This document shows positions 21,022 through 33,576 of a stretch of 64,000 nucleotides of DNA, piece after piece (within the stretch, counting starts at the first letter, position 1; each line of letters begins with the position of its first letter). A program made the position numbers and the translations under genes. The stretch comes from Mangrovibacterium lignilyticum. Lineage in GTDB: Bacteria; Bacteroidota; Bacteroidia; Bacteroidales; Prolixibacteraceae. The notes beneath the pieces were generated by a model, which made no database searches, was not told where the DNA came from, and saw only the letters and a program-made list of their open reading frames with translations. The stretch spans positions 861-64,860 of the forward strand of contig NZ_WKLH01000006.1 of NCBI RefSeq assembly GCF_010882175.1. The letters are read 5' to 3'.

Positions 21022-22185
21022 ATGAAAGCGATAAGAAATTTTTTCGAAAAAACGAAGCCTCATGTTCAGAAAGGCGCCAAATATCATTGGCTGCATTCGA
21101 CACATGATGCGGTTTTCACGCTATTTTTCGTACAGAAGAATACGTCTAAATCGGGAACTCATATTCACGATTTTATCGATCTGAAAAGAACCATGGGAAT
21201 TGTTGTTCTCGCGTTGGTTCCTGCACTGCTTTTCGGCATGTACAATGTAGGTTACCAACATTTTGGTGCCCTTGGTGAGTTGGGAACAGCTGGCCTTATG
21301 GACATGTTCCTTTTTGGTCTGCTAAAAGTATTACCGATCATCATTGTTTCTTATGGTGTTGGTTTGGGTATCGAATTTATTTTCGCCCAATTCCGCGGCC
21401 ACGAGGTGAATGAAGGATTCCTGGTATCGGGTCTGTTGATCCCGATGGTAATGCCCGTAAATACGCCTTTATGGATGATTGCAATTGCGGTTGCCTTTGC
21501 AGTAATCTTTGGTAAAGAGGTCTTCGGTGGTACCGGAATGAACATCTGGAATCCGGCACTTATAGCACGTGCGTTCCTGTTCTTTGCATATCCGGGACAA
21601 ATGTCCGGTGATTCAGTTTGGATCTCAGCATCAGGAGTCGACAAAATGGTTGACGGGTTTACCGGTGCTACACCAATGGCATTGGCTGCAGCCGGCCATA
21701 CCGATGCACTTAACACCTGGCATGCATTTGTTGGTTTAATTCCCGGATCAATCGGTGAGACCTCAACAATTGCCATTCTGATTGGTGCTTTGGTACTGAT
21801 TGTAACTGGAATCGGAAGCTGGAGAATTATGCTATCGACTGTCTTAGGTGGGTTATTCATGGGTATCCTTTTGAATATCTTCGCTGGTGACAATACATAC
21901 ATGGCGCTGCCTTTCTACGATCACCTGATCATTGGTGGTTTTGCATTTGGTGCTGTATTTATGGCTACCGATCCTGTATCGGGTTCACAAACTGTAAAAG
22001 GAAAATGGATTTACGGATTCCTGATTGGTGTGCTCGCTATCCTGATTCGTGTCGTAAACCCGGCTTACCCGGAAGGCGTGATGTTAGCCATTCTATTGAT
22101 GAACACCTTTGCACCTCTGATTGACCACTATGTTGTGGAAAGCAACATCAAACGGCGGTTGAAACGGGCAAAAGCAACTATTTAA
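21022..22185 (+). CDS. nqrB: Na+-translocating NADH:quinone reductase subunit B
   Basis: 387 residues with about ten membrane helices. NqrB binds FMN covalently through a phosphoester to Thr; the site is Thr217 in GFTGATPMALAA. It also holds riboflavin and forms part of the Na+ path. Other visible family features are HDAVFTLFFVQKNTSKSG, LIPMVMPVNTPLWMIA and MATDPVSGSQTVKGKWIYG. FMN attachment needs ApbE, which is encoded at 37887. Confidence 0.98.
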   Translation: MKAIRNFFEKTKPHVQKGAKYHWLHSTHDAVFTLFFVQKNTSKSGTHIHDFIDLKRTMGIVVLALVPALLFGMYNVGYQHFGALGELGTAGLMDMFLFGLLKVLPIIIVSYGVGLGIEFIFAQFRGHEVNEGFLVSGLLIPMVMPVNTPLWMIAIAVAFAVIFGKEVFGGTGMNIWNPALIARAFLFFAYPGQMSGDSVWISASGVDKMVDGFTGATPMALAAAGHTDALNTWHAFVGLIPGSIGETSTIAILIGALVLIVTGIGSWRIMLSTVLGGLFMGILLNIFAGDNTYMALPFYDHLIIGGFAFGAVFMATDPVSGSQTVKGKWIYGFLIGVLAILIRVVNPAYPEGVMLAILLMNTFAPLIDHYVVESNIKRRLKRAKATI

Positions 22186-22204
22186 CCTACAAAGACTACG
22201 ACAA

Positions 22205-22900
22205 ATGGACAGGAATAGTAATGTTTATACATTTATATATGCCTCAGCAATGGTTATTTTGGTAGCTGCAGTTCTTTCAATTGCTGCTTTCAACCTAAAA
22301 CCATTTCAAGCTAAGAATATTGAAATTGAGAAAAAGCAAAACATTCTCGCTTCTGTTAACATTGCGGCAAATGCCACAAATGCAGAACAGATCTACAACG
22401 AGAAAATTGTAAACTCTTATGTTGTCAACGCGAAAGGCGAACAAGTTGATGGAAACGCCTTTACTGTTGATATGAAAAAAGAACGTGCCAAGAAAGTTGA
22501 AGATCGTGCTTTACCGGTTTTCGAATGCGAAATCGACGGAAACATTAAATATATTTTACCACTGTACGGTGCCGGACTGTGGGGGCCAATTTGGGGATAT
22601 ATTTCATTGGATAGCGACATGAATACCATTTACGGTGCAACTTTCGACCACCAGGGGGAAACTCCCGGATTAGGTGCTGAAATTGCAACGAAAGCTTTTC
22701 AAGAGCAATTCAAAGGCAAAACGATCTTTGATAACGACGGTAAATTATACTCAATCATTGTTGCGAAATCAAACGAAACAGCTCCTGCAGAACACAAAGT
22801 AGATGCTATTTCGGGTGGTACAATTACCTCTAAAGGTTTGCAGTCGATGGTTGAAGAAGATCTGAACGCGTACAAAGCATTTTTCAACCAGAAAAAATAG
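22205..22900 (+). CDS. nqrC: Na+-translocating NADH:quinone reductase subunit C
   Basis: 231 residues with one N-terminal membrane helix (about 10-32) and a periplasmic FMN-binding domain. Flavinylation site Thr206 in DAISGGTITS; the usual Ala two residues... position of SGAT is Gly here (SGGT), a small variation. YGAGLWGPIWGYISLD and HQGETPGLGAEI are family signatures. Accepts electrons across the membrane and passes them to NqrB. Maturation depends on ApbE. Confidence 0.97.
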   Translation: MDRNSNVYTFIYASAMVILVAAVLSIAAFNLKPFQAKNIEIEKKQNILASVNIAANATNAEQIYNEKIVNSYVVNAKGEQVDGNAFTVDMKKERAKKVEDRALPVFECEIDGNIKYILPLYGAGLWGPIWGYISLDSDMNTIYGATFDHQGETPGLGAEIATKAFQEQFKGKTIFDNDGKLYSIIVAKSNETAPAEHKVDAISGGTITSKGLQSMVEEDLNAYKAFFNQKK

Positions 22901-22906
22901 AAGAAG

Positions 22907-23557
22907 ATGAGCGAGAAAGAAGCATTATTTTCAAAGAAAAACCTGGGACTTTTAAGTAACCCGCTAAACAGCGACAACCCGATTACCGTTCAGGTTTTGG
23001 GTATTTGTTCGGCCTTGGCGGTAACTGCCCAGTTAAAACCGGCGATTGTTATGGCGATAGCTGTAACTGCAGTAGTCGCTTTTGCCAACGTGATTATTTC
23101 ACTTTTGCGCAACACCATCCCTAACCGGATTCGGATCATCGTTCAGCTGGTTGTCATTGCAGCTTTGGTAATCCTGGTAGACCAGGTACTGAAAGCCTTT
23201 GTGTACGACGTGAGCAAGCAATTATCAGTATTTGTGGGTTTGATTATTACCAACTGTATCCTAATGGGACGTTTGGAGGCTTTCGCTTTGGGTAACAAGC
23301 CATGGCCTTCTCTACTCGATGGTATTGGTAACGGTGCCGGATATGGAGCAATCCTTGTTATTATTGGTTTCTTCCGCGAATTACTAGGGTCAGGAAGTTT
23401 GTTTGGATACAAATTAATTCCTGAAAGCTGGTACATCGCCAATGGTGGTTTCTACTCTAACAATGGGATGATGATTTTGCCTCCAATGGCCCTGATTACC
23501 GTAGGTGTAATCATCTGGGTACAGCGCAGCAAAAACCGGAAATTAATTGAAGACTAA
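22907..23557 (+). CDS. nqrD: Na+-translocating NADH:quinone reductase subunit D
   Basis: 216 residues with six membrane helices in the NqrD/RnfE fold. The paired half-repeat motif [19 protein letters not shown] and [20 protein letters not shown] are characteristic; their Cys residues help hold the intramembrane iron centre shared with NqrE. Starts 6 bases after nqrC, and is co-translated in the operon. Confidence 0.97.
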
Positions 23558-23583
23558 TCTGGAAATCAAACATTCATTACGAT

Positions 23584-24201
23584 ATGGAAAATCTGATTAA
23601 TTTATTTGTCAAATCGATCTTCATTGAAAACATGGTATTCGCATACTTCCTGGGTATGTGTTCTTACTTGGCTGTTTCAAAATCAGTGAAGACCGCTACC
23701 GGTTTGGGTGCTGCCGTAATCTTCGTGTTAGCAATCACACTTCCGGTTAACTACTTGCTTGAAAACTACATCCTGAAAGAAGGCGCCATGGCTTGGTTAG
23801 GACCTCAATTTGCTGATGTTGACCTAAGCTTTTTATCTTTTATCATGTTCATCGCTGTTATCGCGTCAATGGTACAGTTGGTTGAGATGATTGTTGAGAA
23901 ATTTGCGCCGGTTCTATACACTCAGTTAGGTATCTTCCTCCCGTTGATTGCCGTCAACTGCGCCATCCTCGGGGGATCACTCTTTATGCAGCAAAAAGCC
24001 TTTAACAACATCGCCGAAGCAACAACATACGGGTTAGGATCCGGTATTGGTTGGTTCTTAGCGATCGTAGGTATTGCTGCAATCCGCGAAAAAATTAAAT
24101 ATTCTCAGGTTCCTGCACCCCTGCGTGGATTAGGTATCACGTTTATCGTGACCGGATTGATGGGGTTGGCGTTCATGGGATTCATGGGAATTAAACTATA
24201 A
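23584..24201 (+). CDS. nqrE: Na+-translocating NADH:quinone reductase subunit E
   Basis: 205 residues with six membrane helices, the inverted partner of NqrD. Characteristic stretches are [21 protein letters not shown] and [21 protein letters not shown], which carry the Cys residues of the [2Fe-2S] centre lying in the membrane between NqrD and NqrE. It relays electrons between NqrF and NqrC. Confidence 0.97.
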
Positions 24202-24220
24202 ACGACTAAAATTGAGTACT

Positions 24221-25492
24221 ATGATATTGTTAGCATCTCAATCAACAGTTGTCCTGACCAGCGTAATCATCTTCTTGTTGGTGATTATTCTGTTAGTTGG
24301 AATCCTGTTGTTTGTTAAAAAGAAATTAACCCCATCCGGATCCGTTAAGATTAATATCAACGACGGTTACATGGAAATGGAGACTGAGCCGGGCAGCACA
24401 TTGCTGTCAACGCTTAGCAACAATAAAGTAATCCTGCCATCGGCTTGTGGTGGTGGTGGTACTTGTGGGATGTGCCGTTGCCAGGTTACTGGAGGAGGTG
24501 GATCTATTCTGCCTACTGAAACCGGATTCTTTACCAGAAAAGAACAAGCCGACAATTGGCGCTTGGGCTGCCAGGTAAAGGTGAAAGAAAACATGGACGT
24601 TCACATTCACCAGGAAGTTCTTGGAGTGAAAAAATGGGAATGCGAAGTGGTTTCAAACAGCAACGTGGCTACCTATATTAAAGAGTTCGTGGTGAAATTG
24701 CCGGAAGGCGAAACACTGGACTTCAAATCGGGTGGTTACATTCAGATTGATGTTCCTAAAATCGATGTTGACTTCAAAGACATGGAGGTCGATGACGAAT
24801 TTCGCCCTGAGTGGGAACAATATGGTTTGTTTGACCTGAAAATGAAAAACCCGGAGCCAACATTCCGTGCTTATTCAATGGCCAACCACCCTGCTGAAGG
24901 AAACATCGTGATGCTGAACATTCGTATTGCAACTCCTCCTTTCGACCGTGTTAACGGTGGTTTCACGAAAGTAAATCCAGGAGTTTGTTCTTCATTTATT
25001 TTCTCTCGCAAACCAGGTGATAAAGTAACCATCTCAGGTCCTTTCGGTGAATTCTTCCTGAAAGATAACGACAGCGAAATGATGTTTATTGGTGGTGGAG
25101 CCGGTATGGCGCCTATGCGCTCTCACTTGTTCCATTTATTTCACACCGTGAAAGAAACCAAGAAAAACGTGACTTTCTGGTATGGAGCACGTTCATGGAG
25201 AGAAGTATTCTACTACGAACAGTTCAAAGAGATTGAGGAAAAATTCCCTAATTTCAAATTCTACCTGGCTCTTGACCGTCAAGACCCGGAAGCTGATAAA
25301 TTGGACATTAAATACAAAACAGGCTTTGTACACAACGTCATTTACGACAACTACCTGAGACAACATGAAGAGCCGGAAGAAATCGACTTCTACATGTGTG
25401 GTCCTCCGATGATGAACGCAGCAGTACAAAAAATGCTTTACGACCTGGGCGTTCCTGACGAAAACGTTCTGTTCGACGACTTCGGAAGCTAA
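24221..25492 (+). CDS. nqrF: Na+-translocating NADH:quinone reductase subunit F
   Basis: 423 residues from ATG 24221 (TTG 24212 is an unlikely extension). It takes electrons from NADH through FAD to a [2Fe-2S] cluster. One N-terminal membrane helix; ferredoxin domain with Cys76, Cys82, Cys85 (ACGGGGTCGMC) and a later LGC; FAD-binding RAYSMANHP; NADH-binding GGGAGMAPMRSH; and the C-terminal YMCGPPMMNAAV. Last gene of the nqr operon, followed after about 20 bases by a strong terminator that separates it from the polyferredoxin operon. Confidence 0.98.
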   Translation: MILLASQSTVVLTSVIIFLLVIILLVGILLFVKKKLTPSGSVKININDGYMEMETEPGSTLLSTLSNNKVILPSACGGGGTCGMCRCQVTGGGGSILPTETGFFTRKEQADNWRLGCQVKVKENMDVHIHQEVLGVKKWECEVVSNSNVATYIKEFVVKLPEGETLDFKSGGYIQIDVPKIDVDFKDMEVDDEFRPEWEQYGLFDLKMKNPEPTFRAYSMANHPAEGNIVMLNIRIATPPFDRVNGGFTKVNPGVCSSFIFSRKPGDKVTISGPFGEFFLKDNDSEMMFIGGGAGMAPMRSHLFHLFHTVKETKKNVTFWYGARSWREVFYYEQFKEIEEKFPNFKFYLALDRQDPEADKLDIKYKTGFVHNVIYDNYLRQHEEPEEIDFYMCGPPMMNAAVQKMLYDLGVPDENVLFDDFGS

Positions 25493-25513
25493 TCCCTTAT
25501 CCGATATATATGA

Positions 25514-25544
25514 AGAGCTGTTCCATTGGAGCAGCTCTTTTTTT
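25514..25544 (+). terminator. Rho-independent terminator of the nqr operon
   Basis: AGAGCTGTTCC, loop ATT, GGAGCAGCTCT (11-bp stem with one G-U pair), then a T run. Confidence 0.92.
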
Positions 25545-25645: not shown

Positions 25646-26032
25646 ATGATCAAAAAGTCGATTCTTAAATCCCTCATGCTGCTCTTCCTTTTGATGTTGG
25701 TTCAACAATCAAAGGCTTGTGAGGTGGAGATCAAAATACTCGGAGAGCAACAGGTCGAATTATACAAGCCTGGTGAAATTATTATTGTAGAAGTAACAAT
25801 CGTCAATACACATCGCGATTGCAGTGAACCCATCGACCATACTAAAATACTAACCGAAGGATGTAAAGTAACTGCTGCCACCCCATGGAAAGAAATAAAA
25901 GCCTGCACCTATGTCCGAAAATTGAAAATACAGATATCTGCTGATGGTGGTACCCAGCTACAGTTAGTTTGCAAAAGGAGCTGCGATAAAGACGGCGGCT
26001 TCGGCAAGTTAATCTTAGCAAAAAAATCCTGA
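25646..26032 (+). CDS. Small secreted Cys-rich protein, first gene of the polyferredoxin operon
   Basis: 128 residues. Signal peptide to about Ala24 (LMLLFLLMLVQQSKA), so the mature protein would start at Cys25; the lipobox is not canonical. Cysteines at 25, 59, 73, 87, 109 and 113. A beta-rich core follows the pattern PGEIIIVEVT ... C ... KACTYVRKLKIQI ... LVC. I do not recognise a named family. It is clearly related to the fifth protein of this operon (29645-30052): the GE/GD-I-VEVT strand, the order of three Cys (59/65, 87/92, 109/112) and the spacing match. Being first in the operon and exported, it could bind a metal, a cluster or a substrate for the exported redox proteins. The next gene starts 2 bases after its stop. 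Confidence 0.8.
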   Translation: MIKKSILKSLMLLFLLMLVQQSKACEVEIKILGEQQVELYKPGEIIIVEVTIVNTHRDCSEPIDHTKILTEGCKVTAATPWKEIKACTYVRKLKIQISADGGTQLQLVCKRSCDKDGGFGKLILAKKS

Positions 26033-26034
26033 TT

Positions 26035-27327
26035 ATGGCTTCCTTCTACCAACTATGCCATATTCCGGTTGTTCTCATCGGATCACTAACCAATGAATTT
26101 CTAAATTCAGGATCATCGCTCTGTGGTGCTTGTAGCGAATGCGCTCCAACCGGCAATACAGAACCATTTTTGCCTTTTGCTGAATTCCCCTTCTTCTTAA
26201 TAGTCGTCGCTACCGCTTCCCTACTTCTTTTCAAGAAAAAAATCCTTGCGCGATTTTTATGGGCTATGGGCGTAACAATCTTTATCGGTCTGTCAATCTG
26301 TTTAACCAATAATCAGCAAACCGCACAGGAGCCCTTTCCTGTGTTAGCATTGGCCGCCCAAAACAATGAAGCTTTAGCAGAAACCGAATCAATAACTGAA
26401 GTTGAAAATGGTGATTTTACTGATGACGAGTTTGCCGCAGTAAATGAATTCGACGAATTTGTGAGCGTCGACAATTCGGAATTTGGATCAATTGAGGAAT
26501 TTGAATCGAATCAACAGCAACTGAATTCAACAGCGGATACAAAAGCTTTGATTCGTGTGGCAATAGCCCTGCTGCTTACAATAATCTCTGGCATTGCAGT
26601 CCGCTTTCAACAAGGTCTAAAATATCGATGGTTTATTTTACTTGGTTCACTCGTATATCTGGGGTTCTACAGCTCAGGGTGTCCCTGTATGATTTCAAGC
26701 TTTCAGAACCTGATTTTATTACTGCTTGGAGTACCGATCGTATGGACGACAACTATTTGGATTCTGGGGCTGATTGTGCTGACTTATTTCTTCGGAAAAG
26801 TTTGGTGTGGCTGGGTCTGCCACCTGGGCGCATTTCAGGAATTTCTGTACAAACCGACTAAACTTACGTTCTTAAAATCGTCCAAAAGCCAAAAATTTCT
26901 ACGAATACTCCAGTACGTCTGTCTTTGTATCTTAATAATACAACTTCTCGTCACCAAGACAAACCTTTTTATAAAAATTGATCCGTTTAAAGTAGCGTTT
27001 AACCTGCTTTCTGTAAATACAACCGGCTATGTGCTACTGGCAATACTACTGATCAGCTCTCTACTCTCCTATCGTCCGTTTTGCAGGGGATTCTGTCCGA
27101 TCGGATTAATTCTGGGCTGGGTGACAAGGATCCCCGGAGCATCAAAACTTCAAATTAGCTCAAGTTGTAAAAGCTGTGCAAAATGTGAGAAGCAATGCGA
27201 CTCTCAAGCCATTAATCAATCGGCAAATGGTTTTTCTATTCAACAAGAGAGCTGTATTCTCTGCGGCGAATGTATGGACGAGTGTCGCTTCCAATCCATC
27301 GGGTTTACCCACAAACAAACCAATTAA
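26035..27327 (+). CDS. NosR/NapH-like membrane 4Fe-4S protein
   Basis: 430 residues. The C-terminal half is the NapH/NosR-type polyferredoxin membrane module: CGWVCHLGAFQEF at 258-270, a second CRGFCPIGLILGW, then two CxxCxxCxxxC ferredoxin motifs (CKSCAKCEKQC and CILCGECMDEC). About seven membrane helices in total. Unlike plain NapH there is an N-terminal extension with CGACSEC (Cys30/33/36), two extra helices and a strongly acidic loop at about 93-168, plus GCPC before one helix. Relatives take electrons from quinol or a cytoplasmic donor and hand them to exported redox partners. Here the natural partner is the Tat polyferredoxin two genes on. Overall function is inferred. Confidence 0.85.
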   Translation: MASFYQLCHIPVVLIGSLTNEFLNSGSSLCGACSECAPTGNTEPFLPFAEFPFFLIVVATASLLLFKKKILARFLWAMGVTIFIGLSICLTNNQQTAQEPFPVLALAAQNNEALAETESITEVENGDFTDDEFAAVNEFDEFVSVDNSEFGSIEEFESNQQQLNSTADTKALIRVAIALLLTIISGIAVRFQQGLKYRWFILLGSLVYLGFYSSGCPCMISSFQNLILLLLGVPIVWTTTIWILGLIVLTYFFGKVWCGWVCHLGAFQEFLYKPTKLTFLKSSKSQKFLRILQYVCLCILIIQLLVTKTNLFIKIDPFKVAFNLLSVNTTGYVLLAILLISSLLSYRPFCRGFCPIGLILGWVTRIPGASKLQISSSCKSCAKCEKQCDSQAINQSANGFSIQQESCILCGECMDECRFQSIGFTHKQTN

Positions 27328-27330
27328 ACA

Positions 27331-28614
27331 ATGAGAACGGTAAAAACAAAATATCTGAAAAGATTGACCATCGCAGGGCTAACGCTGCTATGCATTGGCA
27401 ACAAAGAGGCAAATGCCCAGTGGGAGTGTTGCAGCCATCTTTCAGCCAACATCAAGCCGCTTTACGAAGGATCAGCACTATGCTGGGGAGCCGAAGTGGC
27501 GGGCAGTGGCGGTTACCTTACCGACAGCTACATCGCCAATAGCATGGGTTTTCTGGGGCTTGAACTTTCATCTAATCATTTTCAATTCTACGCTGAAGGC
27601 GGTATAAAGTATTGGTACAAAAATGACAGGGAACTTGGGAACACGTTTAGCTCGAACAGATTCGGATTGCGCGATCTGTCAGCAAATTATTTTAGCAATA
27701 ATTTTTCCATCCACTTGGGTTTACAACAAATAAAAACCGACGACTTTTTCCTGGTGAACGAGCGCGGGACAGGGCTGACCCTCCAATACAACCAAAATAA
27801 CAGCAATGTTCAACTGGCAGCTGGAACGGTAACAAAAGACTTTTCGAGAAACGGAATCTTTTGCACCACAGCATACATTTACGATCTGATACCAGTTAGA
27901 ACTATGCCCGCCGGAAATAGCTGGGGTGACACCAACTTTGCAAGCTTCTCCTTTCTTAGAACGATCAACCATAAAAAGCAATCGACAGCTGACCCGGCAT
28001 TCGACGAATTTCAGGAGTTTAGCCCAATTGAGGAAAATTCCACAAATACCTCCTTCGGAGTGGAGTCCTACGGGGTTACTTTGTATTCGGAATTTGGAAG
28101 TTATTACGACCACCAGAGTTGGTATGCCGCGATACACACAACCATAAACCTCGGACATATCGCCAACTTGAGAGCAGAATCCGCTTACCAAGGCGTTACT
28201 GATAACCAATCGCTATTACTGTATTTGCAACTTGAGAAAGACCTAGCATGGTCAATCAATCAAAGTTCAACGATCCAGTTGCTATATCTCGGCCAGTTCG
28301 AAATTGATGAGAACGCTCAAGTTCTACCTCGCTTTTCAAACCTATTTTTAGGCGAAGTATTCAGAATGGATTTGGTGGATCTACCGCTATTTAACGCTTC
28401 ACTAAAACATCAATTTTCAGCAAGTCAACTTAGCCTGAAATTACAATATACCCGGCAAATGAAAGGCTCGAACATGCGAGAGCTCGATTTTTCCATCGGC
28501 AAGTTTTTCCTAAAAAAACATCTTCGACTAACTGCACTGAGCGGCATTATGAACTCCGATGAGCTAACAGAGCAAGCGACATTAGGCCGACTCGAAATGC
28601 GTATTTTCTTTTAA
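27331..28614 (+). CDS. Outer-membrane beta-barrel protein of the polyferredoxin operon
   Basis: 427 residues with a signal peptide (about 1-29, ending EANAQ). The body is a run of amphipathic strands with alternating aromatic and polar residues (FQFYAEGGIKYWY, SIHLGLQQIKTDD, WYAAIHTTINLG, IQLLYLGQFEID), and the last residues RLEMRIFF give the terminal Phe used for BAM-dependent insertion. A CC pair sits just after the signal cleavage point (WECCSH). No named family. In an operon with an exported polyferredoxin, a barrel could house or dock that protein at the outer membrane, as MtrB does for multihaem cytochromes; this is inference. Gaps to neighbours are 3 and 10 bases. Confidence 0.8.
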   Translation: MRTVKTKYLKRLTIAGLTLLCIGNKEANAQWECCSHLSANIKPLYEGSALCWGAEVAGSGGYLTDSYIANSMGFLGLELSSNHFQFYAEGGIKYWYKNDRELGNTFSSNRFGLRDLSANYFSNNFSIHLGLQQIKTDDFFLVNERGTGLTLQYNQNNSNVQLAAGTVTKDFSRNGIFCTTAYIYDLIPVRTMPAGNSWGDTNFASFSFLRTINHKKQSTADPAFDEFQEFSPIEENSTNTSFGVESYGVTLYSEFGSYYDHQSWYAAIHTTINLGHIANLRAESAYQGVTDNQSLLLYLQLEKDLAWSINQSSTIQLLYLGQFEIDENAQVLPRFSNLFLGEVFRMDLVDLPLFNASLKHQFSASQLSLKLQYTRQMKGSNMRELDFSIGKFFLKKHLRLTALSGIMNSDELTEQATLGRLEMRIFF

Positions 28615-28624
28615 ACCACTACCC

Positions 28625-29644
28625 ATGAAAACAAATACAAGAAGAAAATTTATCCAGCAATCCCTGCTGCTCGTTGGAACAGCTGCTTTAGGGGCCCGAT
28701 TTCTAAGTTCGTGCGATGGAAGTTTCTACAAAGGCCTGCGTGTTGTAACTTCTGATTGCACATCCTGCGGAGACTGTCTGGATGTATGTGCGTACAATGC
28801 CATCAGCCTGGAAGAGGCTTCCTACTCTATCGATACGTTCCTTTGCACCGAATGTAAAGCCTGTGTTCCCGTCTGCTCAGTCGAGGCGATCAGCATTCCC
28901 GGAGTTACATACTCGATCAGCTCCGGCAATTGCACAGCCTGCGAGAAATGTGAAGATGCCTGCCCCGAAAATGCCATCACGATCGATGTTTCAACGTCTG
29001 AAAGCAGCTATTCAATTTCCAGCAGCGGATGTGTCGGTTGCGGCGATTGCGTTACGGCCTGTATCAATGAAGGTAATGCCATCAGCTATGTTCGATCTGT
29101 TTATTCAGTAGGGAATAACTGCCACGGTTGCGTCCAGCGCTGTTCCTCCGCATGCAGCTACGGAGCAATTTCTAAAGTCAACGGAAAATCCTCAATCAAC
29201 ACATCCAAGTGTACCAAATGTGGAAAGTGTCTTTCTGCCTGCCCCCACAATGCTATTTCCAAAGCTTACGTCACAATTAACTCATCGACTTGTACAAACT
29301 GTGGCAGCTGTTATTCGGCTTGTACCCACAACGCTGTAAATAAAAGTACCACTGGCAGTACAAGCCGGATTACAACAATCGACCAAACGCATTGCACCCA
29401 GTGTGGAGATTGTTACGCTGTTTGCCAGGAAGATGCCATTATCGTTAGTTCAAGCGATGTCAGCGAACCAACAATCGACGAGGAGTTGTGCACCAGTTGC
29501 GGTGACTGTATAACGGCGTGCAGCTCTGCAAATGCAATTATTGTTGATGGCTCGCCCGCCAGCATTGATCAGGAGAACTGTATGCTCTGCGAAAAATGTA
29601 TCACTACCTGTACATATGATGCCATCGTTTATATACCCGAATAA
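28625..29644 (+). CDS. Tat-exported lipoprotein polyferredoxin with ten 4Fe-4S motifs
   Basis: 339 residues. A twin-arginine signal (TRRKFIQQSLLLVGTAALG) leads to a lipobox-like FLSSC with Cys30, so export is in the folded state, with probable lipid anchoring. After that come ten Cys motifs about every 30 residues, starting at Cys45, 74, 103, 136, 166, 196, 223, 257, 289 and 319. Nine are CxxCxxCxxxC; the fifth is CxxCxxxCxxxC. Each is followed by the usual ferredoxin strand (NAIS, DAII). In bacterial-type ferredoxins paired motifs bind two [4Fe-4S] clusters, so up to ten clusters are possible. No catalytic domain is present: it looks like an electron wire or capacitor outside the cytoplasm. 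Polyferredoxins such as MvhB are cytoplasmic; an exported one beside an outer-membrane barrel is unusual. Confidence 0.92.
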   Translation: MKTNTRRKFIQQSLLLVGTAALGARFLSSCDGSFYKGLRVVTSDCTSCGDCLDVCAYNAISLEEASYSIDTFLCTECKACVPVCSVEAISIPGVTYSISSGNCTACEKCEDACPENAITIDVSTSESSYSISSSGCVGCGDCVTACINEGNAISYVRSVYSVGNNCHGCVQRCSSACSYGAISKVNGKSSINTSKCTKCGKCLSACPHNAISKAYVTINSSTCTNCGSCYSACTHNAVNKSTTGSTSRITTIDQTHCTQCGDCYAVCQEDAIIVSSSDVSEPTIDEELCTSCGDCITACSSANAIIVDGSPASIDQENCMLCEKCITTCTYDAIVYIPE

Positions 29645-30052
29645 ATGCCGACAAAAAGCAAACATATTGCCACCGTGCTGGCGCTGCTAATATTTATGGC
29701 CGGAGCTGTTTTAGGAGGCTCATTGACCGCCAACCCTATCGTCTACAAGTTTCAAATCATAAAAGGTGGAAAAGCTTGTTATACGAACGGTGATAGTCTG
29801 CTTATCGCTGTTACCGCAAAACAGAAAGGAAACAGCTGCCTGGACGGAGTTGAAAAAACCCGCCTTTTCTATAAAGGTTTCAAATTGGTCCATCAACAGA
29901 GCTGGGCAGACAACAACTGTGGTGTTTGGACAAAAATAGTACAACTCATCGTCACAGGTGCCGAAAATAAGAAGGCCTGCATAACTGCTTTCAGACAAAC
30001 AGATTCAGGGACGATAGCAGAAACATTCACACTAAATACCGATTCAAAATGA
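29645..30052 (+). CDS. Small secreted Cys protein, paralogue of the operon's first gene
   Basis: 135 residues with an N-terminal membrane/signal segment (IATVLALLIFMAGAVLGG). Cysteines at 45, 65, 92 and 112. The beta-rich body NGDSLLIAVTAKQ ... SC ... NNCGVWTKIVQLIV ... KACIT lines up with the 25646 protein, three Cys being in common. It starts immediately after the polyferredoxin stop (TAA then ATG) and its end overlaps the permease start by ATGA, so translation of the three is coupled. Function unknown; a duplicated partner protein of the exported electron-transfer proteins is a reasonable guess. Confidence 0.78.
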   Translation: MPTKSKHIATVLALLIFMAGAVLGGSLTANPIVYKFQIIKGGKACYTNGDSLLIAVTAKQKGNSCLDGVEKTRLFYKGFKLVHQQSWADNNCGVWTKIVQLIVTGAENKKACITAFRQTDSGTIAETFTLNTDSK

Positions 30053-31068
30053 GCTTTTTAAATACAAATGGATTGACGGTTCAAAAGCCGGGAAAAATCA
30101 ACTTCTACAAAGTAACAGTTTGGTTGGTTCTACTCCTTCTTCTGACAGACACCGTCTATTCGAGCTGGTACGGGATTCATTACCATACCCGCGAAAAATG
30201 TATCATATATCGCTTTCTTCCGTCCTGGCTGTTCATGATCAATGAATATCTGGTAGAATTGTTTTTGATTGTGGTAGCAGGGAGCTTCGCTGGAACAATT
30301 GTAGAAAAGTATTTTTCAAAATACAGGAGATTTCTACCACAAAATCAGCTTTCTGCATTCCTGTACGCCTCTGTCATTCCGGTTTGCTCATGCAGTGCCA
30401 TCCCCCTGATCGAAACGATGAAATCGCGTCTTCCATTGCGTACCATCATAACTTTTGTAATGGCTGCGCCATTGCTAAACCCCTACATTCTGTTTCTCTC
30501 CTGGTCGATATTGGGTGTTTGGTATACCGCCCTTAGAATTGCTGGTTCTTTCCTCATCGCGATAATTACCGGATGGGCCGTTGAAATTGCATACCATAAA
30601 ATGAGAAAGCCGGAAATTGGCATTTATAAAAGCTGCAAGCCATCAACGTGCTCGGTCACTGCGGGGAAAGATGTTTATCAAAAAACCTGGCAATTAGTGG
30701 GCAAAATAGCACCCTTCATTTTAATTGCCGGCATACTGGGATTGACCTTTGAACTACTCGAACCACTAAAACTGATTGACAATTTATCATTACACAATAA
30801 TTTTCTTAGCCTCATCGTTATCACCGCCATCGGTACTGCTATCTATTTATGCAACGGTGCTGATATTCTGTTTTTGGCCCCATTGCTTCAATACACCGAT
30901 TTGGGAGCTGGCGGAGCAATCGCTTTTTCACTCAGTTCAACAGCCGTCTGCGCAAGTTCCATTATTATGTTATCACGGTTCATCGGAAAGCGACTCACAT
31001 CAATCCTAGTCCTGACCACCATCCTAATTATCTTGATCTTTAGCTTCACAATCAACCTGTTTTCCTAA
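30049..31068 (+). CDS. ArsP/DUF318-type permease, last gene of the polyferredoxin operon
   Basis: 339 residues with eight or more membrane helices. The signature PVCSCSAIPL at 111-120 followed by PLRTIITFVMAAPLLNPYIL is typical of the PF03773 permease family. Some members (ArsP) export trivalent organoarsenicals; most have no known substrate. A cytoplasmic loop carries KSCKPSTCS, a possible metal or thiol site, and a later half-repeat has YLCNGADILFLAPLL. The start overlaps the previous gene by 4 bases. Its place in a redox operon suggests that the exported system either handles a metalloid/thiol compound or needs a transported component, but the sequence does not decide. Confidence 0.82.
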   Translation: MSFLNTNGLTVQKPGKINFYKVTVWLVLLLLLTDTVYSSWYGIHYHTREKCIIYRFLPSWLFMINEYLVELFLIVVAGSFAGTIVEKYFSKYRRFLPQNQLSAFLYASVIPVCSCSAIPLIETMKSRLPLRTIITFVMAAPLLNPYILFLSWSILGVWYTALRIAGSFLIAIITGWAVEIAYHKMRKPEIGIYKSCKPSTCSVTAGKDVYQKTWQLVGKIAPFILIAGILGLTFELLEPLKLIDNLSLHNNFLSLIVITAIGTAIYLCNGADILFLAPLLQYTDLGAGGAIAFSLSSTAVCASSIIMLSRFIGKRLTSILVLTTILIILIFSFTINLFS

Positions 31069-31174: not shown

Positions 31175-31861
31175 ATGACAAGAGTATCGATTTTTTTCGC
31201 ATTAGCCCTATTAGTTTTTATAAGTCCTTTTATTTTGAGCCCTGAGAATAATGGCTCGAATGATAGCGCTATGCCTACCAACTCCGTTGACACACTCTAT
31301 ACCCGTTACAACAGCTTAAACCTGAGCGGAAAACTACCCTACCCAATCTTTGCCAGAGCGATGGGCGGATTTCATGCTTTTCATTTCAAAAACAACCAGA
31401 TTCTAACAATCATTGACTTTACCAAGGTATCCACAGAAAGACGATGTTATGTGATTGATTTAAAAGCCAACAAACTACTCTTCGAAAGCTTGGTTGCTCA
31501 CGGTAAAAACTCAGGTGTGGATTATGCTCAAACTTTTTCAAACAAAGAACACTCACTAATGAGCAGTCCTGGATTCTACTCAACTGCAGAGACCTATTTG
31601 GGAAAACACGGCTATTCGTTGCGATTGGACGGATTGGAAAAAGGAATTAACGATCACGCCCGAACGCGAGCCATCGTGATTCATGGCGCTGATTATGTGA
31701 GTGAAAAGTTCATTCGAAAAATTGGCCGTTTGGGAAGAAGTTGGGGATGTCCGGCTCTGCCTTCAAACTTGAACAAGGAAATCATCGACTACATCAAAAA
31801 CGGAACCTGCCTGTACATTCACACGAATAACCAATCATACCTGGCACAATCCCCAATTTAA
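31175..31861 (+). CDS. Murein L,D-transpeptidase-like protein (YkuD_2 type)
   Basis: 228 residues with an N-terminal signal/anchor segment (FFALALLVFISPFIL). The catalytic domain belongs to the YkuD_2 group: an RAIVIHGADYV segment with the His, then LGRSWGCPALP with the catalytic Cys. Such enzymes act on peptidoglycan stem peptides in the periplasm, forming or trimming 3-3 crosslinks or attaching proteins. It is convergent with a second, larger L,D-transpeptidase, overlapping by 4 bases. Confidence 0.88.
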   Translation: MTRVSIFFALALLVFISPFILSPENNGSNDSAMPTNSVDTLYTRYNSLNLSGKLPYPIFARAMGGFHAFHFKNNQILTIIDFTKVSTERRCYVIDLKANKLLFESLVAHGKNSGVDYAQTFSNKEHSLMSSPGFYSTAETYLGKHGYSLRLDGLEKGINDHARTRAIVIHGADYVSEKFIRKIGRLGRSWGCPALPSNLNKEIIDYIKNGTCLYIHTNNQSYLAQSPI

Positions 31862-33576
31862 TTTGTTGATGTATTTTCGGCTTTCAAACTTGTTGGTTCT
31901 GTTGTATTCAGTTCCTCCAATACTTTCGCATCACGACTATAAATATCCCTGAAAAACCCGATTCCATTGCCTTCGTAGTAACCAGCCGTGAGATAAAGCA
32001 GTAGAACGTCAATGTCTTTCTCCGGAAATACCCGTATTGTTTTATGACTTTTAACGGTCGAGTCAATTTTCTCCCTTGTCCACTCCGTCCCTTCCAGTAA
32101 AACGACTGCTAAATCCAATGGATTTTGTGTTCGAATGCAACCATGACTAAACGCCCGTTCCTGCCTGTCAAATAAACTCTTTGAAGGAGTGTCGTGTAAA
32201 AAAACCGAATACTTGTTCGGGAAAATGAACTTGACAACACCTAATGAATTTCCCGCGCCAGGTTTTTGCCGAACCATGAAAGGAAAATTAGAAGGGCTGA
32301 TCTCCGCCCTATTCAAGGATGAATTGGCAACGATGTTACCGGAACGATCGATTAGCTCAAAATTGTTTCGATCGAGATACAATGAGTCTGACTTGATGTG
32401 CGGAATAATACTATTTTTAACGATTGAATAGGGCACAGTCCATGTCGGATTAAATTCAATGTAATGAAGCCTAGATTTAAAAACAGGCGTCTTGGTATAG
32501 GTCCTCCCAACTTGCACATTGGCAACAAACCGGGTAATATTATCTTCGATGTAATAAGCCTTAAATGCCGGGATATTTACTAGAATAAAACGGTTGCTTT
32601 TGTCAGACACCACCCAACGCAAGCGCTCCATGTTGACCCGTAGTTTGGCGATCCGCTCCTGCACCGTTTCGTTCAGGGCTTCAAATGTACCTTTGCCAAT
32701 AATTCCGTCCGGTGTCAAAGCATTTTTATGTTGAAACTGCTTTACATCGCTTACTAAATATTCATCATAAAGCGGGCTTAACAGATTCGTATCGCTACGA
32801 AGCTCTCCGGTTTTCAACAAACGTTCGCGAATCATGGGGACACGATCATCCTTGTCTCCCGGACTGACCACTTTTCCCCTTGGTATTACTCCCCAGCCGC
32901 CGGCATCTGCTATCTGCCGATAGTCAACCAACAAGGTCATATAATCCCTGTAAAGGATCATATCCGGTCTCAGCTCATGCAAGGCGTTAGATATCTCGCC
33001 CCGTGCAATCGCTTGCTCCAATTTGTAGGGAGCGTCTTCCATTATTTCCCGAAAACTATAGTTCCAATTCGGATCCAACGATTCAGGATCGACCTTCCCT
33101 TTCAGTAAATGATAAGCATACAGAAGAATCACGTCAGTCACTAAAATATCGAATTCGCCAACCCAATCATAATCAATTTCTCCCTCCGAAAGTTTTCCAC
33201 CAATCAAGCCAATGATATTTCGGAGTCTGTCAGCATGGTAGTCATTGGGAATTAGACCGTCTTGCCAAGACTGATGCAAGGCGTTAAGTGCATCTAACAA
33301 TACAGTATAATTGTCCCAGGCCGGCTTGTAGTCTCTGTTTTTGTAAAACTCCGGTAGTACGTTAGCCGAGAATATATATTCCCCCTCGATTTCCAAAATC
33401 TGCCCATCCTCCATTTTTTTTATCGCGCCTTGAATATGGAAGGCGATCTTGTCCTGACTGGAATAGATCTTTTTGTGAGCCTTCCGATTTTCGTCAACTT
33501 CAGCCTGAGCCATAGAGAATTCACTCGCCAAGGCAGAAAGAATAATGATCAGAAAATAACGGTATAACATAGACAT
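31858..33576 (-). CDS. L,D-transpeptidase (YcbB/LdtD-like)
   Basis: 572 residues with a signal peptide (YFLIIILSALASEFSMAQA). Domains in order: a scaffold region (about 50-250), a peptidoglycan-binding helical domain (about 255-310, VKQFQHKNALTPDGIIGKGTFEAL), and the YkuD catalytic domain (about 340-520) ending in FSHGCIRTQNP with the catalytic His-Gly-Cys. This is the layout of YcbB, which makes 3-3 peptidoglycan crosslinks in the periplasm. The extra C-terminal tail of about 50 residues is not assigned. Confidence 0.93.
   Translation of the reverse strand: MSMLYRYFLIIILSALASEFSMAQAEVDENRKAHKKIYSSQDKIAFHIQGAIKKMEDGQILEIEGEYIFSANVLPEFYKNRDYKPAWDNYTVLLDALNALHQSWQDGLIPNDYHADRLRNIIGLIGGKLSEGEIDYDWVGEFDILVTDVILLYAYHLLKGKVDPESLDPNWNYSFREIMEDAPYKLEQAIARGEISNALHELRPDMILYRDYMTLLVDYRQIADAGGWGVIPRGKVVSPGDKDDRVPMIRERLLKTGELRSDTNLLSPLYDEYLVSDVKQFQHKNALTPDGIIGKGTFEALNETVQERIAKLRVNMERLRWVVSDKSNRFILVNIPAFKAYYIEDNITRFVANVQVGRTYTKTPVFKSRLHYIEFNPTWTVPYSIVKNSIIPHIKSDSLYLDRNNFELIDRSGNIVANSSLNRAEISPSNFPFMVRQKPGAGNSLGVVKFIFPNKYSVFLHDTPSKSLFDRQERAFSHGCIRTQNPLDLAVVLLEGTEWTREKIDSTVKSHKTIRVFPEKDIDVLLLYLTAGYYEGNGIGFFRDIYSRDAKVLEELNTTEPTSLKAENTSTN

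Follow-up and report, generated by a model that had tools for sequence, protein, structure and literature searches.

Electron transfer from the inner to the outer membrane uses haem proteins in well-studied bacteria. In flavinylated NapH-like systems most members carry a periplasmic domain that binds flavin mononucleotide (FMN) (PMC8238504, partial text). NapG is a ferredoxin-type protein exported by the twin-arginine translocation (Tat) pathway, and fused NapH-NapG proteins exist (PMC5449189, partial text). NapH homologues in anaerobic methanotrophic archaea (ANME) and the evolution of NQR are treated in PMC9012536 and PMC4014512, respectively (both partial texts). Here these systems are compared with a six-gene locus of Mangrovibacterium lignilyticum (Bacteroidales; source genome 5.6 Mb). 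It lies in a stretch of 64,000 nucleotides (contig NZ_WKLH01000006.1, positions 861 to 64,860 of the forward strand), referred to as the window, and encodes the following:

25646-26032, + strand: gene A, secreted protein (Sec-type signal, by eye), predicted immunoglobulin (Ig)-like beta-sandwich
26035-27327, + strand: gene B, NapH/NosR-like membrane ferredoxin with a putatively periplasmic acidic DEF-repeat linker and an N-terminal CxxCxxC
27331-28614, + strand: gene C, predicted outer-membrane barrel of 18 strands, with DEF in the loop that joins strands 8 and 9
28625-29644, + strand: gene D, predicted Tat-exported lipoprotein polyferredoxin with ten [4Fe-4S] motifs
29645-30052, + strand: gene E (A'), paralogue of A
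30049-31068, + strand: gene F, ArsP_1-family permease

A check of the open reading frames (ORFs) in the window gave six genes, all on the + strand, separated by gaps of 2, 3, 10, 0 and -4 bases, in agreement with a preliminary description of this DNA. The gene set is real and conserved and seems not to have been described before. The best reading is a Bacteroidales envelope redox module that links the inner to the outer membrane, akin to NapGH-type electron transfer but reaching further outwards, in which electrons would leave B, travel through A and arrive at C and D (probability roughly 0.55). The preliminary description knew of no system with this gene set, and none was found among the papers listed by searches aimed at it in the openly licensed PubMed Central (PMC) literature, where absence is not proof.

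Like NapGH, NosR and PceC, B has a Fer4_5 membrane core followed by a C-terminal ferredoxin domain, and D resembles NapG as a ferredoxin-type protein with a Tat export signal. Unlike these proteins and the flavinylated NapH-like systems (as presented in the partial text of PMC8238504), B has no FMN_bind match and has a periplasmic DEF linker instead; furthermore, the operon lacks a terminal reductase, the partners of B being a barrel and a secreted Ig-like protein. The locus resembles MtrCAB in that a single operon encodes an inner-membrane donor, a candidate periplasmic carrier, and a barrel with a lipoprotein redox chain. In contrast to MtrCAB, no haem or cytochrome family was found with Pfam among the six proteins, [4Fe-4S] clusters taking that place; the predicted barrel has 18 strands and no MtrB_PioB match, and passage of electrons to the outside is conjectural. 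D, a string of [4Fe-4S] motifs, has the polyferredoxins MvhB, FwdF and RnfB as its nearest solved structures, but differs from them by its Tat lipoprotein signal, its position in a barrel operon and its size of up to 21 strict motifs. In comparison with the ArsP, SO_0444 and SaoE permeases, F matches ArsP_1, but its NCBIfam scores fall well short of the cut-offs for SaoE (59 vs 325 bits) and SO_0444 (45 vs 300 bits).

Distribution of the genes in Bacteroidales

Profiles of B, A and C were each run against 393 genomes of the order (G and L numbers denote genomes and loci). B was found in 28 genomes, A in 27 and C in 20. Co-occurrence had been proposed in the preliminary description as a check, and it is pronounced: A is present in 27 of the 28 B genomes and C in 20 of them, while both are absent from the other 365 genomes (Fisher, 7e-41 and 2e-27, respectively, kinship ignored). 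The sole B genome without A, G678, has a B gene that is cut off near a contig end. In six genomes (G474, G502, G603, G682, G719 and G749) A and B are located on separate contigs, so their co-occurrence is not merely a by-product of linkage; the assemblies are fragmented, and in G502 A, B, C and D lie on four separate contigs. Within the genus of the window, C is present in G002 and G003 and absent from G001.

The count of B genomes is defined by score. Ninety genomes passed 1e-25, of which 28 with at least 206 bits were counted as B and 62 with at most 141 bits were set aside. Nearly all of the latter align to the middle of the B model only; those in G606 and G560 cover the greater part of it, and both genomes lack A and C in the profile searches. 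Phylum-wide, the B profile (1e-20, 392 genomes) gave four matches of 76-107 bits besides the own genome, which were not counted as B. Among eight loci from named genomes, the best relatives of the B protein came from a Sunxiuqinia metagenome-assembled genome (MAG), a Bacteroidales MAG and two Draconibacterium records. The set-aside B-like proteins of L088 and L089, and second copies in B genomes (L083, L123), sit in a different cluster with pyrroloquinoline quinone (PQQ)-type propellers. This second NapH-like cluster lies in the genome of the window too (G000:C9, L083:2876-17244) and encodes, besides the propellers, a NapH-like protein, a Tat ferredoxin and flavoproteins that are NuoF-like and GltD-like; B matches of its strength (103-141 bits) are the only ones in the 62 further genomes of the 393, and the same cluster is found in L088, L089 and L123.

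Among the 20 genomes with C, 11 also gave a D, which adjoins C in nine and lies elsewhere in G502 and G782, where it likewise carries a twin-arginine signal. With relatives fetched by name and congeners included, D lies directly 3' of C in 13 distinct loci, at a distance of 2-27 bases in the 12 where the start calls give a positive gap. At 1e-15, D was detected in none of the eight B genomes without C (chance 0.008, kinship ignored); this search covered 24 chosen genomes, among which all eight of these and all nine C genomes without adjacent or fetched D. At 1e-30, the D profile matched 8 of 334 genomes, all with C, and long D occurred in no searched genome lacking C. Both searches may miss a two-motif D, as in G592 and G619, and a short D elsewhere is possible.

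All six genes were found in seven distinct loci (the window, G003, G002, L015, L016, G619 and G592). The G002 locus is on the same contig as L013 and its F is interrupted by the contig end; L085 and L013, and likewise L056 and L018, are apparently the same contigs, judged by length and gene layout, and each pair was counted once. The order is A'-F-A-B-C-D in L015 and L016 and A-B-C-D-A'-F elsewhere, which shows that A'-F is a separate block. The gene set is layered, with an A-B core, the additions C and D, and the separate A'-F block. The single six-gene unit first described is ruled out by this layered occurrence and by the movement of A'-F as a block. The clustering is more than chance, since in other genomes the genes again occur together, also with their blocks in a new arrangement. 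A weak C-like barrel in the same family (L012, G015:C1:973006-973920; 1.6e-7, 26% identity, without DEF) was not counted as C.

The predicted proteins and their shared acidic repeat

B matches PF12801 (Fer4_5) with 56.2 bits against a cut-off of 22 and Fer4_6 with 25.5 against 25, so that membrane and ferredoxin domains are both present, as the preliminary description had recognized. It remains below the cut-offs of the NCBIfam NapH equivalog and subfamily models (68.7 vs 213 and 61.5 vs 234 bits); by these scores B is NapH-like rather than NapH. In the Pfam search, FMN_bind gave no match in B at E 0.1. Among the best 60 of 114 solved-structure matches to B, the best stretch is the ferredoxin domain and not the membrane part. 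From its sequence, B appears to have five membrane spans after the linker and an outside N-terminus. In short versions of B, a signal-like segment is immediately followed by the DEF linker, which argues that the linker is periplasmic. Most B proteins in the tree have a CPC motif. It is absent from a well-supported clade of seven (100/100), the genomes of which have no detected D, and from L079, which does have D and shows CxxC in its place.

The acidic DEF repeat is common to the linker of B and a loop of C. Its frequency is 5.4 per 1000 amino acids in B and 6.1 in C versus 0.23 in 109,017 residues of neighbouring ORFs, a more than 20-fold difference. Single copies have none to nine repeats, some members lacking an exact DEF. 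B proteins from C-bearing genomes are richer in DEF than those from other genomes (22 vs 8 rows; Mann-Whitney p 6e-4, kinship ignored); excluded from this comparison were L014, L017, L019, L020, L081 and L082 (truncated or unclear) and L083, L086, L088 and L089 (other family). If both barrel ends are periplasmic, the DEF segment of C, between strands 8 and 9 of the model, would face the periplasm as well. Mature A has an isoelectric point above 7.5 in 21 of 24 sequences (exceptions L015, L058 and L064), and it may dock on the DEF repeats. Long D is acidic.

The A protein of the window has no Pfam match at E 1, and its 24-member family gave weak matches only (best 0.003, in one member, to Cupin_2); no credible relative among solved structures was found by sequence. 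The AlphaFold model is a beta-sandwich with a predicted local distance difference test (pLDDT) score of 84.5 and Ig-like Foldseek neighbours. Four residues, Cys25, His56, Cys59 and Cys113, are invariant in the alignment of 24 sequences; in the model they are found at strand ends, and they may form one joint site. An invariant Ala-Cys suggests that the signal is cleaved just ahead of Cys25. A is probably a periplasmic carrier or adaptor. Kinship with copper proteins was considered and rejected: AmoB and PmoB appear at Foldseek ranks 9 and 31, no match has E <=0.001, and other Ig-like folds rank equally high. The product of gene E is a distant paralogue, as had been proposed, matching the A-family profile at 6e-14 with 14% identity. 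Of these residues, only Cys59 is preserved in all four aligned A' copies (two from the genus of the window, two from Draconibacterium). His56 and Cys113 are absent from all of them; Cys25 is missing in the former two, while the latter two retain a Cys close by. A' adjoins F wherever F is present in the fetched loci. F itself matches ArsP_1 (PF03773) at 2.6e-24 (86.3 bits, gathering cut-off 32.3), in line with its first annotation as an ArsP-type permease.

C from the window has no Pfam match at 0.1, MtrB_PioB included; its family of 19 members gave weak matches only (best 0.011, in one member), and searches by sequence returned no credible relative with a solved structure. Cys33 and Cys178 are invariant in the 19 sequences. 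The model has 18 strands at low confidence (pLDDT 59.6), and Foldseek ranks MOMP, OprD/Occ and AlgE highest (template modelling (TM) score about 0.45-0.5; 3e-9 and TM about 0.46 to MOMP, on this model). MtrB_PioB was not found in the genome, and 0 of 14 control genomes scored above the cut-off, which leaves this search without a strong positive control; it is the sole search touching haem-based routes. Hence the preliminary assignment of C holds, at low confidence, for the barrel, but not for an MtrB type, which was rejected in view of the missing MtrB_PioB match and the OprD/AlgE-like 18-strand model.

D from the window has a ferredoxin Pfam match, exactly ten CxxCx2-3Cx3C motifs, and a twin-arginine signal with a lipobox (RRKFIQ..LSSC). 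It is therefore predicted to be a Tat-exported lipoprotein; the Tat signal and polyferredoxin nature had been described before, the lipobox is an addition. Export signals were read as sequence motifs. TatC is present in the genome. All 12 C-linked D copies that were scanned have the twin-arginine motif and eight have a strict lipobox, the remaining four having a Cys at a looser site. The size of D ranges from 2 to about 22 clusters. L061 and L065 have two motifs, L062, L066 and L069 have 66 Cys besides the lipid Cys, and L079 has 80 besides the lipid Cys with 19 strict CxxCxxC motifs. D of G782 has 92 Cys in total and 21 strict motifs, amounting to ~22 clusters.

Genomic setting

Two features precede the operon in the window:

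21022-25492, + strand: nqrB to nqrF (Na+-NQR), directly upstream of the operon and outside it; possible electron source
25512-25540 (stem), + strand: terminator-like hairpin between nqrF and the operon, a 13-pair stem followed by a T-rich tail

nqrB and nqrF score above the NCBIfam equivalog cut-offs. Read-through from nqr into the operon is made less likely by the hairpin, which is a consensus pattern match only (8 such patterns in the whole region vs 5.4 in shuffles). ARAGORN placed a tRNA-Arg at 23616-23696, probably a false positive since it lies within the conserved coding gene nqrE. Downstream of the operon (31175-33576) are two convergent L,D-transpeptidase-like genes with a 4-base overlap, retained in G003 (L084); the first is an L,D-transpeptidase by Pfam, and the second we take to be similar from a motif in its sequence.

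Redox genes also adjoin the module in other genomes, and NQR or RNF does so in four contexts altogether. B lies between nqrA and nqrB in L019, and NQR is located upstream in the genus of the window; RNF lies upstream in L071 and ~3 kb downstream in L073 (RnfC passes the cut-off, which the RnfB models narrowly miss). L015 and L016 have an NADH-dependent [FeFe] hydrogenase as a neighbour. These neighbours fit low-potential electron donors, which is suggestive only. In L060 a ZupT gene precedes A and in L080 genes for an ArsE-type thioredoxin and an ArsG permease are found 3' of B, all above cut-off. The B next to these genes (L080:7546-9707) is divergent, and its genome gave no ArsF. ArsF was rejected as the missing partner of B in G719, where it was not found; it was found in G562 and G749. 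In L075 the permease ahead of A, with an NCBIfam match below cut-off, is presumably TauE-like. In L063, L067, L071 and L074 the core has another setting, TetR-A-B-C, and in three of these loci an MMPL/HAE3-type exporter lies downstream. Near B, two genomes encode a small protein that bears a single CxxCH motif (L077:2205-2552 and L070:12700-13062).

The proposed module and rival explanations

The proposal of an exported iron-sulfur electron-transfer set is supported by this analysis. In the proposed mechanism, electrons would enter B from quinol or through its cytoplasmic ferredoxin domain, and B would pass them across the membrane to the periplasm. A, which is small, mostly basic and provided with an invariant Cys-His-Cys-Cys set, would accept or relay these electrons, docking on acidic DEF repeats suspended from B and from the periplasmic face of C. 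At the outer membrane D, together with C, may then conduct or store electrons, and A' and F could form an accessory transporter pair.

Several observations weigh against this mechanism. A appears to be Sec-exported, which makes an iron-sulfur cluster in A unlikely. The acidic or near-neutral A of L058, L015 and L064 and the slightly basic two-motif D speak against docking by charge alone, and confidence in the C model is low (pLDDT 59.6). C is missing from the congener G001, which is 99% complete, and D was not detected in nine of the 20 C genomes. Three of these nine (G509, G603 and G678) are less than 80% complete, and seven represent the one B clade that also lacks CPC. In this clade of seven, TetR is found upstream in four, an MMPL-type exporter downstream in three, and resistance-nodulation-division (RND) genes in some. 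Finally, the transporters beside the core vary, including ArsP_1, ZupT, a TauE-like permease, an MMPL/HAE3-type exporter and ArsE/ArsG.

An inner-membrane quinol dehydrogenase formed by B and D for a periplasmic enzyme, as in NapGH, with C as a bystander, would explain the NapH matches of B, all below cut-off, and the nature of NapG, itself a Tat-exported ferredoxin-type protein known in fusions with NapH (PMC5449189, partial text). However, the presence of D follows that of C and not that of B, no B genome that lacks C having a detected D, and it is A and C that regularly accompany B, which makes this explanation improbable. Extracellular electron transfer is a special case of the envelope module, in which C and D would form an iron-sulfur conduit through the outer membrane, equivalent to porin-cytochrome systems, to or from an outside acceptor or donor. 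The tight 3' linkage of D to C, the predicted lipoprotein nature of D with up to about 22 clusters and the restriction of long D to genomes with C all favour it. On geometry only, an 18-strand barrel (~33 Å backbone diameter, against ~48 Å for 26 strands) leaves little room for a ferredoxin chain, and C persists without detected D; such a conduit is possible, though we do not favour it.

An alternative of equal rank is that the module handles a metal, metalloid or other soft substrate by reduction. C would then be a porin for this substrate, B, A and D would carry out the reduction in the periplasm, and a neighbouring permease would export or import the product. The porin-like fold of C and the transporters beside the core (ArsP_1 with A' in seven loci, ZupT in L060, ArsG with the ArsE-type thioredoxin in L080) are in agreement with this, but the transporters differ between loci, Pfam revealed no catalytic subunit among the six proteins and as many as about 22 clusters would appear excessive for such a role. 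Iron corrosion by Prolixibacter was considered and set aside as a physiological link; the title of the first paper listed on it names nitrite as a cause.

The boldest form of the envelope module is a haem-free iron-sulfur conduit from the inner membrane to the cell surface. D would sit on a barrel of its own, and acidic DEF tethers on the two membranes would capture the basic carrier that supplies it. This is speculative and rather doubtful; if true, it would be the first extracellular electron transfer route based on ferredoxin-type clusters. If electrons do reach the outer membrane on [4Fe-4S] clusters, genome screens for extracellular electron transfer that count haem motifs would overlook a route used by Bacteroidales in sediments, guts and reactors. 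The cautious reading still yields two families (A and C) without a credible Pfam match, a tether motif common to B and C, and predictions, testable in the laboratory, on how reducing power from NQR, RNF or ferredoxin may reach the cell envelope.

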